A stretch of DNA of 64,000 bases from Victivallaceae bacterium (GTDB lineage: Bacteria; Verrucomicrobiota; Lentisphaeria; Victivallales; Victivallaceae): contig JAKSOF010000001.1 of the NCBI GenBank assembly GCA_024405735.1, forward strand, positions 1 to 64,000, written 5' to 3'. The notes under the pieces were generated by a model, which made no database searches, was not told the origin of the DNA, and saw only the letters and a list, made by a program, of their open reading frames with translations. Shown piece by piece: positions 21,011-62,890 of the stretch. Each line of letters opens with the position of its first letter. Positions within the stretch are counted from its first letter, which is position 1. A program made the position numbers and the translations under genes.

Positions 21011-21247
21011 GGCTTGTCACGGCGTAGCAGTGCAACTGCGGTGTCATTCTCTACGGACTTTAACGGACCAAACCGACATTAACGGACAAAACGGACGCAT
21101 CATCATTGCGTGATTTTGTCTTTTCCATCACGCTAATTGTCCGTTACTGTCCGTAGAAGTCCGTTATCGTCCGTTTTTGCCTTCATTTCGCGGCGACGTC
21201 CGCGAGACAGACATCAGCGTAAGTGCCTCGCACATCAGGCAGTCGGG
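21011..21247 (+). repeat. Novel intergenic repeat element, copy 1 (about 237 bp)
   Basis: This stretch aligns over its full length, without large gaps, to the reverse complement of 61780-62018. Inside are five ACGGAC-like hexamers (21053, 21063, 21072 as ACCGAC, 21082, 21091), a conserved hairpin GCGTGAT (21108-21114) / ATCACGC (21127-21133), and four GTCCGT hexamers at exactly 10-bp steps (21139, 21149, 21159, 21169), so the whole is an imperfect giant palindrome. A second hairpin CGCGG/CCGCG follows near 21190-21204. No coding frame is conserved. It lies between the convergent divIC and DUF2156 genes. It could be a structured RNA, a protein-binding array or a MITE-like element. Confidence 0.85.
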
Positions 21248-21487
21248 CGGACGAAGCGCGAAAGCGCGAAGTATTAGCCCGCGTGGGACGCGCGTCCTCT
21301 TTGCAGAAACAAACAGAAGAGCCCGCGGAGATTTGCGGAGATATTCGTCGGGAATACGATAAAAGCGTCAGTCCGCAAATATCTGCGGCAGCAGGTACAA
21401 AGTCCAGCCTGTGGCTGGTTGAGGGGAGTTTCAGAGGGGGCGAAACAAGCCCCCTTTGGCTTCCATTGCGTCAAAGTGCGGTAATGC
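21248..21487. other. Structured non-coding stretch between repeat copy 1 and terminator
   Basis: About 240 bases without a credible gene. It contains ATTTGCGGA (21331-21339) paired with TCCGCAAAT (21372-21380), CCAGCC-TGT-GGCTGG (21404-21418), and GGGGGC (21436-21441) / GCCCCC (21449-21454). The density of perfect stems is higher than in other gaps of this window. The role is unknown. Confidence 0.5.
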
Positions 21488-58083: not shown

Positions 58084-58112
58084 TTGCAATTTTCCGCGAG
58101 GTGTGCTAAATT
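58084..58112 (+). promoter_or_regulatory. Promoter of the 1,180-residue secreted protein
   Basis: -35 TTGCAA (58084-58089), 17 bases, -10 TAAATT (58107-58112). TTATAA directly follows. Confidence 0.5.
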
Positions 58113-58150
58113 ATAACATAGTTGTCCACATTAAGGAAAGGATCATATTT

Positions 58151-61100
58151 ATGAATTACATCAGAAAAGCGGGGTTTGCGATGGCGGCATTGGCGGCGAT
58201 CGGATTGTCGGCGGGAAACGATGTGCTTTTTCACGAGGACTTCAACGTTTTCCGCGGCAAGGGCGCGGCGAACTGGGAAACGCTGAAAACCAGCAGCAAT
58301 ATGGTGGAAGTTTTCGTCCGCGACGGCAACACGTTCCGTCTGCTTTCGCCCAGCGATATGTTTATGCCGATCATGGACCCGGTTTCCGACGGCAAAGTCG
58401 ATCTTGTGATCCGCGCTTACGGTTTCGACCCCAAGTGCAACTACGGTTTCAACGTCAATTTCAGGCAGGACGTCGTGCGGCGCACCGCGCAGAGCATCCG
58501 TTTCTTTGTGCGCGGCAAAAGCGGCAAAATGATCGTCAGTTACGGTACTTACGCCGACAATTTCTTTAAGACCATCAAAAGCGAAAGTTTTGACGTGCCG
58601 GCCGACGTGATGAAAAACGACTGCACGGTCTCCGTCGAATTCAAGGGCGACAAAGCGATCGCCACTTTTAACGGCAAAAGCGTTTCTTTCGACGGTGTCG
58701 GCGGCACGGACGGTCAGTTGAGCATCAACCGCATGAATTTTTTCGACTCGCTCGTTTTGAGTAAATTCGAGGTCTCCGGCAAAAAGACGGAAGCGGCGAA
58801 AAACGCCCGGAAATTCCGCGTGACGCTTCCCGAAGCGCCGATGGGACTTCCGATTTACTGCGACGTCGAATTTTCCGAGCACGGGCTCTTTTACGAAGCC
58901 GTGCTGACGCTTTCCGGCGGCGAGTTTCTGACGCCTCCGGGGCAGGGCAACTACCACGGAATGCGCACCAACCGCATCGATCACCCCTATTTCAAAGTCA
59001 TCACCAAAGACAAAACGATCGAGTACAATCTTCTGGACGGCTTCCTCCACCTCGCCAACAAGGAGATCGCCCCGATCCACGTCTACACGGTCATCTACGA
59101 CAAACCGGAGTGGCCCTTTAAGCGGACGATCCGCTTTTTCAAGCCGCAGGGCGCGTTTGATATGGCGGTCGGCGCGAAGCTCGCCGCTTTCCGTCCCCAT
59201 ATCGATCTCACGATGAAGGACTGGGAAACCATTTTTACACCGGAAGGCAAGACGCTCTTTGCCGGGACTTCGCCGGAAAGTAACGTTTCCGTCATTCTGA
59301 CAAGTTCCCCCGACAAAAAGATCGTCGCCAAATTGCCGCGCACGAGTACGCGCGTCGAAGATGCGATCAATTTCGCCAAAGTCAACCACTTTTTCTACCC
59401 CGGCGAGGCGTTGGATTTCACGCTGACGCTCAAGGGCGCGACTCTGCCCGCCAAAAGCGAGATCGCACTTGCCGACGCCTTTTTGAAGCCGGTGAAAAAA
59501 CTGGAGCTTTCTCCTGAAAAATCCGTTGAAAAACTCGGTCAGCGCGACCTCGCGGTCGAAACCTACCGCATCAAACTGGATGAACTTCCCGTCGGCGTTT
59601 ACCATATCACGGTGAAATCGCAGGATGCGACCATTCCTTTTGACCGCTTTATGGCGTTTGAAGTGATGCCTCTCGACCCCTCGCAGCCGACGGCGGCGCA
59701 AGCTTCGGGACTGCCTTACATCTACAGCGCGTTGACGGAGACCCGCGGGCTCCGCACCGATGCTTTCGACCCTTTCAAACCGTGTGAACGCAACTTCGGG
59801 CACTACGTCAGCGGCACGGTTTTCCTGCCGTGGTATGCGCGCGAAACCAATTTGTACGACACCGTCCATTTCTACGGACGCAAATACTTCGCGTGGCTCG
59901 GCAGCCGCTGTCTTGACAAGTGGCACCTCTCCGAAACTGAAGACATCTGGAAAAACGCCGATGTCGCCCACTTCGGCGTCGAGTTGGAAACGGGCGGACT
60001 CATTGCCCTTTACCGCAGTCAGCGGCTCAAGGAGTTTGTGGAATTCGCCAAGCAGACGAAAGATCCTTTTTACGACATCCCCCGGCTGGAAAAACTCGCT
60101 TTGGTCGACGGCGGCAATATGGAGGCTTTTAGTGGAATGGAAAACCGCAGTCTCGACGCGGAAACCTACCGCTATACGGTGGTGAACCATTTCCCCGAAT
60201 GGCTCGAATTCGCCAACAAGAGCACGGCAAAGCGCATTCACGACAAACTCGTCGAATTGCGCAAGGTCAATCCGAAACTGATGTTCGCCTGCTACGGTCC
60301 CGCGCCGATCTATACCGGCACGTATATGGGACCGGAATTCGCGCTTTACCTCGGTCTGGCGAAAACCAGTCCCGACGACGTCGCCTATTTGCAGTACGAG
60401 GATTACCCCGAACTTTGCGACTATCCCGAATCGCGCGGTTCCTTCTTCCTCGGCACGCTCTCGATGTCGGTGCCGCAGATCCGCATCGCGCCGGAACTTT
60501 ACGGTGACGGGTTCGGCAGCGGCTGTCCCGACGGCGCGGCGTTTTTCGCGCATCCGCCCTACGGCATCGGCGGCAACAACTATTTCTACCGCACGCGCAA
60601 CCGCGTTTACGAGTACATTTACGGCACGGCGTTTATGGGAGATGAAAAATTCCAGTACTGGAACCGTTTCGGCATCCAGCTCGGCGCCGCCCGCTATGAA
60701 CGTCTCGAAAACTTCCTCAAAGCGTGGGGCAACGCGATGCGCAATCTCCCGGTGAAGCCGATGCGCTCCGCCGCCTACGTTTTCAGTATGGATTCGTGGA
60801 ACGCCAACCAGGGCGGCGACGCCCACTTCGCGGTCAAAGGGGTCGAGGGCACCGACGTCGCATTCGTCCTTGAAGCCGCCCAGGTGCGCAAGACGGCGAG
60901 CGCGATGATGCCCTTCATCTATGAAAACGTCAGCAACAACGGTCTCTGCGCCGGTTATCAATTGATGGCGAAAAATCTGAAAAACCTCAAGGCGGAAAAC
61001 TGCGACATCCTCGTGCTGCCGCCGTTGAAAGGGGTTCCCGCCGATCAGCAGAATGAGATCCGCCGCCTCTACAACGAGGGCGTGACGATCATCTGCTCCG

Positions 61101-61693
61101 AGGAGCCGGGCGATCTCGCCGATCTCTTTAAAGTGAAAGACGGCGGCAAATTCGTCAAGGTCAATATGGCAAAAGGTACGGAGAAATTCCTTCCCGGTAT
61201 GGTCGATGCGACGACCGACGTCTGCTTCGGCGGACGCTTTCTTGCCGACGGCGCGGAGGTGCTGATCGACGGCGAGATCCCCGTCCTCTACAAGGCGACC
61301 AACGGCAAGGCGAATGCCTACTTTTTCAACGTGCCGCCGACCACGGCGACTTCCGATATGCTCTGGGAGCGTCACGGCTACGGACGCGTCGTCATCAGCC
61401 AACTGATGATCAAGGCGGTGCAGGAAATTTTTGCCCGCGACAACAAGGTCGAAGTGTTTGCCGACTCCGGTCGTGTCCTCGCGGCGGAAACGGCAAAAGG
61501 CTTCGCTGTCGTGCATCGCAACAACAGTGACGAAGACAAACTTGTCGAATTGACTTTCCGCAAACGCGATCCCAAGGAACATCTCATCTCCTTTGACCGC
61601 GAATACCAGATCTTGCAGGACGATGCCGAAGTGCTGAAAGTGCGTTTCAACACCAAATTCCGCTCGGCGGCGTTTATGGAGATCGGCAGATAG
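58151..61693 (+). CDS. Large secreted glycosidase-like protein
   Basis: A 1,180-residue protein with a signal peptide (about 1-22, MNYIRKAGFAMAALAAIGLSAG). Residues about 25-210 look like a LamG/DUF1080-type beta sandwich (LFHEDFNVF, RFFVRGKSGK, DSLVLSKFEVSG). Beta-rich domains follow to about 530, then a region rich in Trp, Tyr and acidic residues (DKWHLSETEDIW, YEDYPELCDYPE) that may be an (alpha/beta)8 catalytic domain, then about 870-1070 resembling the amidotransferase-like trimerisation domain of GH42 enzymes (RSAAYVFSMDSW, CDILVLPPLKGVPADQQNEI). Catalytic acids cannot be named. AGGAAAGGA precedes the ATG. It is likely a polysaccharide-acting enzyme in the periplasm or outside. Confidence 0.7.
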   Translation: MNYIRKAGFAMAALAAIGLSAGNDVLFHEDFNVFRGKGAANWETLKTSSNMVEVFVRDGNTFRLLSPSDMFMPIMDPVSDGKVDLVIRAYGFDPKCNYGFNVNFRQDVVRRTAQSIRFFVRGKSGKMIVSYGTYADNFFKTIKSESFDVPADVMKNDCTVSVEFKGDKAIATFNGKSVSFDGVGGTDGQLSINRMNFFDSLVLSKFEVSGKKTEAAKNARKFRVTLPEAPMGLPIYCDVEFSEHGLFYEAVLTLSGGEFLTPPGQGNYHGMRTNRIDHPYFKVITKDKTIEYNLLDGFLHLANKEIAPIHVYTVIYDKPEWPFKRTIRFFKPQGAFDMAVGAKLAAFRPHIDLTMKDWETIFTPEGKTLFAGTSPESNVSVILTSSPDKKIVAKLPRTSTRVEDAINFAKVNHFFYPGEALDFTLTLKGATLPAKSEIALADAFLKPVKKLELSPEKSVEKLGQRDLAVETYRIKLDELPVGVYHITVKSQDATIPFDRFMAFEVMPLDPSQPTAAQASGLPYIYSALTETRGLRTDAFDPFKPCERNFGHYVSGTVFLPWYARETNLYDTVHFYGRKYFAWLGSRCLDKWHLSETEDIWKNADVAHFGVELETGGLIALYRSQRLKEFVEFAKQTKDPFYDIPRLEKLALVDGGNMEAFSGMENRSLDAETYRYTVVNHFPEWLEFANKSTAKRIHDKLVELRKVNPKLMFACYGPAPIYTGTYMGPEFALYLGLAKTSPDDVAYLQYEDYPELCDYPESRGSFFLGTLSMSVPQIRIAPELYGDGFGSGCPDGAAFFAHPPYGIGGNNYFYRTRNRVYEYIYGTAFMGDEKFQYWNRFGIQLGAARYERLENFLKAWGNAMRNLPVKPMRSAAYVFSMDSWNANQGGDAHFAVKGVEGTDVAFVLEAAQVRKTASAMMPFIYENVSNNGLCAGYQLMAKNLKNLKAENCDILVLPPLKGVPADQQNEIRRLYNEGVTIICSEEPGDLADLFKVKDGGKFVKVNMAKGTEKFLPGMVDATTDVCFGGRFLADGAEVLIDGEIPVLYKATNGKANAYFFNVPPTTATSDMLWERHGYGRVVISQLMIKAVQEIFARDNKVEVFADSGRVLAAETAKGFAVVHRNNSDEDKLVELTFRKRDPKEHLISFDREYQILQDDAEVLKVRFNTKFRSAAFMEIGR

Positions 61694-61779: not shown

Positions 61780-62018
61780 CCGACTGCCCGATATGCAGTA
61801 CTTCCCACGCTGATGTTTCTCTCGCGGATGCCGCCACGAAAGAAAGGCGGAAACGGACGATAACGGACTTCAACAGACGGTAACGGACAATCAGCGTGAT
61901 GAAAAAATGATAAAATCACGCAATGATGACGCGTCCGTTTTGTCCGTTAATGTCGGTTTTGTCCGTAAAAGTCCGTATGGGATGACAGCGCAGCTGCATT
62001 GTTTCGCTGTAATCAGCC
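61780..62018 (-). repeat. Novel intergenic repeat element, copy 2 (about 239 bp, inverted)
   Basis: Reverse-complement copy of 21011-21247, diverged but collinear. Plus-strand positions: ACGGAC-like hexamers at 61853, 61863, 61873 (ACAGAC) and 61883; hairpin GCGTGAT (61894-61900) / ATCACGC (61915-61921); GTCCGT-like hexamers at 61933, 61942, 61952 (GTCGGT), 61961 and 61971. The loop is 14 bases against 12 in copy 1. A perfect stem ACAGCG/CGCTGT near 61985-62010 is added at one end. It lies between the terminator of the secreted-protein gene and the iclR promoter. No gene is visible in 61750-62079. Confidence 0.85.
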
Positions 62019-62146: not shown

Positions 62147-62890
62147 ATGATCAAAGTCATCGACAAGACCTTGAAGGTGCTGGAAACGATCGTTTCCGCA
62201 TCGCCGTGTGCGGTAACGCCGAAAAAACTCGCTCAAACGCTTGATTTGACGGTATCGACGGTATCTCATATTCTGAAAATGCTGTTGGAGTCGGGGTATA
62301 TCTTGCAGATTTCGCGGCAGGAGGGTTATGTCGCCGGACCGAAACTTGCGGTTTTGGGCAATATCGCCGATTTCGAGGGCAAACTTCTGGCGGCGGGGAA
62401 ACCGCTTGTCGATCATATTGCGGAAAACATTCAGGACACCGTGCTGATCTCGCGCGTCTACGGCAAGTTGCGTTATGTGCTTTACCTTAAAAACGGCAAT
62501 CCGGCACGGGAGATACGGGTACAGCGCGCGGGGACGCGCGACCTTTTTTGGACGGCGACCGGGCTTGCGGAAATGGCGTATCGTCCGTGGCAGGAAGTCC
62601 TGACATTGTACCGCGCTTACCCGGCAAAAGAATGTCTGCCGGATGCGACAGACGAAGAAGCGTTGCAGAAACTTCTCTCCAGAATACGCAAGGAGGGGTT
62701 CTACACGACGCGCAAACGCGATATGGGGATTTTTGCCGTACCGGTTCTGGTCGACGGCAATTTCGTCGCGGCGCTGGGGTGCAACATTCCCGCGAGCCGT
62801 TATACGGTGCAACACATCAAAAAAGTATTGAAAATCCTGATCGGGGCGGCGGCGGAATTATCCTCCGCATTGAGTGCCTGCGAGATATGA
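62147..62890 (+). CDS. IclR-family transcriptional regulator
   Basis: A 247-residue regulator. The N-terminal winged helix-turn-helix (about 5-65) has VTPKKLAQTLDLTVSTVSHILKML as recognition region in two blocks, and the C-terminal effector domain (about 75-245) ends with the ligand-loop segment FAVPVLVDGNFVAALGCNIP and helix RYTVQHIKKVLKIL. IclR proteins usually sense small carbon compounds; next to a sugar-acid dehydratase gene 12 bases downstream it probably controls that gene and perhaps the secreted-protein gene upstream. No Shine-Dalgarno sequence is visible. Confidence 0.9.
   Translation: MIKVIDKTLKVLETIVSASPCAVTPKKLAQTLDLTVSTVSHILKMLLESGYILQISRQEGYVAGPKLAVLGNIADFEGKLLAAGKPLVDHIAENIQDTVLISRVYGKLRYVLYLKNGNPAREIRVQRAGTRDLFWTATGLAEMAYRPWQEVLTLYRAYPAKECLPDATDEEALQKLLSRIRKEGFYTTRKRDMGIFAVPVLVDGNFVAALGCNIPASRYTVQHIKKVLKILIGAAAELSSALSACEI

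Follow-up and report, generated by a model that had tools for sequence, protein, structure and literature searches.

The stretch of Victivallaceae bacterium DNA analysed here (64,000 nucleotides, hereafter the window) contains two copies of a dispersed repeat whose working parts would be two inward-facing arrays of the 6-bp word ACGGAC/GTCCGT, with units about one helix turn apart. The reading that we favour, albeit tentatively and as somewhat less probable than its contrary, is that the arrays which these dispersed repeats bear at the ends of genes are sequence-specific sites for a putative oligomeric protein. Related species and several other phyla have the same rows within repeats unrelated to this one, which suggests a binding-site array of an undescribed kind and not a simple hairpin. 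The putative protein, oligomeric and sequence-specific, would occupy several adjacent words per arm, as MraZ does on its 10-bp repeats; two arms so occupied might mark or insulate the ends of transcription units or else aid the persistence of the repeat.

Re-reading of the window bore out the geometry on which the original prediction had been built. In copy 1, whose homologous core spans 21011-21220 on the plus strand, the left arm (21053-21096) consists of five ACGGAC-like hexamers starting at 21053, 21063, 21072, 21082 and 21091, of which the third reads ACCGAC and the others ACGGAC, their alternating steps of 10, 9, 10 and 9 bp forming a 19-bp double unit; the right arm (21139-21174) consists of four GTCCGT words at exact 10-bp steps, starting at 21139, 21149, 21159 and 21169; and between the arms stands a hairpin made of GCGTGAT (21108-21114) and ATCACGC (21127-21133). 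Copy 2 (61807-62018, minus strand) is 85-86% alike and, as had been claimed, carries a degenerate unit (ACCGAC, 61952-61957) at the matching place of its long left arm (61933-61976); its shorter right arm (61853-61888) has four units, including a further degenerate one, GTCTGT, at 61873-61878. Past its core, copy 1 runs on to about 21480 through other repeat modules, and since modules GCGGAGATTTGCGGAGATATTCG... and GGGGGCGAAACAAGCCCCC (within about 21175-21480) are also found beside other copies, the repeat is a mosaic.

When all hexamers of the 64-kb window were counted, GTCCGT alone reached four units at 9-11-bp steps, and in five Markov-simulated windows no hexamer reached even three. Step lengths peak at 10 bp, with some arms at 9. 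With a helix repeat of 10.5 bp per turn, the last unit of copy 1 ends up about 50 degrees out of phase in the right arm, against about 137 degrees in the left. The proposal that the period places every hexamer on the same face of the helix thus holds as approximate phasing but was overstated, the argument being weakened by the steps of both 9 and 10 bp seen here and by a species of the genus (G014) in which most arrays have a 9-bp step.

A search of the own genome (G000; 1.89 Mb in 26 contigs) with the repeat returned 19 matches, of which about a dozen are substantial, and homology among the copies extends past the arrays on both sides. Copy 1 has a DivIC gene on one side and a convergent LPG_synthase_C gene on the other, and copy 2 is preceded by a terminator-like hairpin and followed by a gene at 62147 that was judged IclR-like from its first residues alone. 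No repeat follows the DivIC gene in the close relative G026, where a GGCTGTTGC...GCAACAGCC hairpin comes directly after it instead; at that site in G000 about 500 bp of repeat come first, ahead of a hairpin that shares the stem. Neither G026 nor G008 has such a repeat upstream of the copy-2 gene. Because orthologous sites in relatives are without it, in a comparison where synteny differs past the neighbouring genes, the repeat is both lineage-specific and dispersed. The array-bearing repeats themselves differ from species to species, and in the window no known RNA family of Rfam was matched at the gathering score. Elsewhere in the window, at 58103-61693, very long open frames occupy both strands (1196 and 1158 aa, with no Pfam match), the plus-strand frame being suggested as the true gene by a reading of its 3' end.

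The two arms keep a nearly fixed order. Among array pairs at most 200 bp apart, the ACGGAC side comes first and the GTCCGT side second in 27 cases against 1 opposite, a count restricted to arrays with three or more GTCCG-core units and including some cases from the same genomes that are not fully independent; under looser criteria, with overlapping pairs included, the proportion is 62 to 6. The purine-rich arm comes first on either strand, and seven of the facing pairs join one 10-bp arm with one 9-bp arm. By crude gene calls, the genes that flank an array are convergent in 23 cases and divergent in 7, and where neighbours could be identified through Pfam the facing pairs sit just past the stop codons of unrelated genes, at a distance of a few to about 50 bp: four pairs have convergent neighbours on both sides (L074, L083, L100 and L116), three have tandem neighbours (L133, L151 and L162) and none has divergent ones. 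Avoidance of promoters would yield the same picture of location as a function at 3' ends, and for single arrays no preferred orientation relative to genes was seen.

The word is not confined to this genome. Of 34 species of the genus, 16 have GTCCGT arrays of three units, with dozens of matches in G017, G014, G011 and G008, whereas a reversed-pattern control gave two matches in one genome. Presence is patchy, and many of the genus's complete genomes have no arrays. Among 289 genomes from the phylum, 14 contain four-unit arrays (reversed pattern, 0 of 289), which were also found in at least 113 stretches of GTDB genomes, where we estimate a chance expectation of about 0.002 from base counts alone, a figure that ignores composition and the growth of tandem repeats. 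Among the matches listed are many Lentisphaerae, one of them a Victivallaceae MAG from horse faeces (L064), together with Hydrogenedentota, Sumerlaeota, Acidobacteria, Armatimonadetes, Aminicenantes, Sedimentisphaerales and Puniceicoccales. All three spacers are different in 59 of the 113 listed loci, where spacers mostly begin with G; in some arrays the spacers are identical, and pure tandem repeats account for several of those from actinobacteria. The same word with differing spacers thus recurs within a genome, across species and across phyla, and its presence through genus, phylum and many phyla supports the reading of the arrays as protein sites. Viral origin was considered and set aside, as 25 viral contigs carried the word and 18 the reversed word, which is no clear excess; viral contigs with three different spacers numbered 7 and 1, respectively. 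The papers searched for the GTCCGT word and for Lentisphaerae repeats yielded no relevant description.

A second dialect, GTCCGACNN, in which GTCCGAC is followed by 2-bp free spacers at a 9-bp step, is present in 11 of the 34 species of the genus with no control matches, and G026 possesses this dialect while lacking the 10-bp GTCCGT type. Besides G026, the genomes with it include G017, G019, G021, G024, G031 and G032 (loci L033, L228 and L229), and a GTCCGAC array at 9 bp often stands opposite a GTCCGT array at 10 bp. It is conceivable, if unlikely, that all of this belongs to an undescribed DNA-binding system spanning phyla, in which words with a GTCCG core, set about one helix turn apart and facing each other at 3' ends, would act as a chromosomal insulator or as a roadblock to transcription and exist as two dialects (GTCCGT plus 4, GTCCGAC plus 2). 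In many species of the genus the region upstream of mraZ also contains, read by eye, AATAGGNNNN-like repeats with a step of 10 bp (directly upstream in L317, L318, L320, L328, L330, L331 and others), an arrangement known from MraZ operators (PMC5282649), and these are likely to be the MraZ operator of the genus; they show that binding to hexamers arrayed at 10 bp can work in these bacteria, and such operators in the same genus support the protein-site reading. Degenerate tandem arrays of period 8 (L096, L100, L151 and L171) and period 7 (L067, L073 and L086), with GGTTGGGN-like and GTTGAGC/GTTCAGG-like units, were noted in the same kind of genomes.

It may be argued that no protein is needed, the arrays being neutral and satellite-like, that is, degenerate tandem repeats driven by slippage in intergenic mosaics, tolerated at 3' ends and without function, an explanation that we consider somewhat unlikely. 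Copies do differ by whole 10-, 19- or 20-bp units, with left and right unit numbers of 5/4, 5/4, 5/4, 5/3, 5/2, 5/0, 3/3, 3/2 and 3/2 (read by eye, degenerate units counted), and the comparison of spacing across copies that the original prediction had proposed accordingly cuts both ways, units being gained or lost entire while the 9-10-bp spacing is kept. The identical spacers of some arrays, the other short arrays of periods 7, 8 and 9 in the same genomes and the patchy presence also fit slippage. Yet if mutation were uniform, slippage would not preserve six bases while scrambling four, although detection partly favours the hexamer: between copies, the hexamer columns vary less than the spacers (p 0.004) and less than other columns (p 0.014), p values that are optimistic given 11 related, non-independent copies. 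Neither the facing order nor the use of a single word across phyla is accounted for by neutral growth.

Pairing of the arms into an interrupted stem, in RNA or in extruded DNA, to give a bidirectional 3'-end hairpin that would protect mRNA ends or terminate transcription, strikes us as improbable. Predicted single-strand folds are strong (z about -4 to -7, the two arms making the interrupted stem), although a strong fold is expected of any inverted hexamer arrays; the facing order, with its purine-rich arm first on either strand, and the proximity of stop codons would likewise suit such a hairpin. The tested base pairs form in 93.8% of cells, but the compensatory changes that an RNA stem should leave did not appear, covariation among the repeat copies being no greater than in shuffles, and the word is itself conserved although compensatory changes would have served a stem. 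Spacers of opposite arms are not complementary within the genus (0.31 versus 0.40 shuffled) and only mildly so outside it (0.48 versus 0.39), arm lengths and periods are unmatched, and distinct hairpin terminators already adjoin both window copies. Still less credible is a non-autonomous mobile element with the inward-facing arrays as transposase sites near its ends, for although it would agree with the inward polarity and with about a dozen copies that are dispersed and missing from orthologous sites, homology continues past the arrays on both sides, no autonomous copy and no target duplication were seen (synteny differing past the neighbouring genes), array-rich species have no REP-type transposase, and the arrays reside in different repeats in each species.

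On balance, sites for a protein are favoured over a stem because the core is fixed while the spacers vary, because the order of the arms is nearly constant, because spacers, periods and unit counts are often unmatched between arms, because covariation is absent and because paired arrays are sited at the 3' ends of unrelated genes. Of the two options left by the original prediction, protein sites or one long stem, the former fits better, and under it a putative protein would bind the arrays cooperatively. Against the protein-site reading stand the lack of orientation of single arrays, the many arrays elsewhere that are pure tandem repeats, the conservation test on 11 related copies and the many genomes of the genus without arrays. 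The four readings overlap in part, so that the likelihoods we attach to them need not sum to one. Hairpins or transposases are the usual explanation for dispersed intergenic repeats; what stays constant here, in many phyla, is a short word repeated at about one turn of the helix, the spacers being free and the facing order fixed. If a protein reads the word, these arrays would bring to light a factor for DNA organisation or for transcription boundaries and provide a ready substrate on which to test it; if none does, they would offer a clean example of phased arrays arising by slippage.

Several known systems invite comparison. REP/BIME elements with RAYT transposases are dispersed, non-coding intergenic repeats with inverted parts as well, but REPs are not known to contain hexamer arrays, and an assignment to REP/RAYT was rejected as no Y1 transposase match was obtained in the array-rich G017, G014 and G011 and its presence does not track the arrays. 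The own genome has a weak Y1-type transposase match with internal stops, likely a remnant (G000:C26:84078-84242, L247). A CsrA sponge RNA was discarded, CsrA being found in 0 of 34 genomes. Plasmid partition sites (parC-type iterons) have phased direct repeats too, arranged as facing or paired sets, whereas the arrays described here are chromosomal, numerous, dispensable and placed beside ordinary genes. The MraZ operator of Mollicutes, (AAAGTGKN3)3 (PMC5282649), resembles them in that a short word recurs in several direct copies at a 10-bp step, which is also found here, its own copies being read by one oligomeric protein, but it is a single promoter site per genome with no facing pair, in contrast to the many facing sites seen here; MraZ itself was rejected as the binder, since the word upstream of mraZ in the genus is AATAGG, in AATAGGNNNN repeats that do not carry GTCCGT. 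The short tandemly repeated repetitive (STRR) sequences of cyanobacteria (Mazel et al. 1990, as presented in PMC2670836) are tandem short units, intergenic, hairpin-capable and present at many sites per genome, traits that the arrays share; the STRR unit is usually 7 bp and its hosts are filamentous cyanobacteria, whereas ours have 9-10-bp units with a 6-7-bp core, free spacers and facing pairs and belong to Lentisphaerae and other phyla, with no cyanobacterium among the matches listed. The closest known counterparts are therefore the cyanobacterial STRR arrays and, for architecture, the MraZ-type 10-bp operators.
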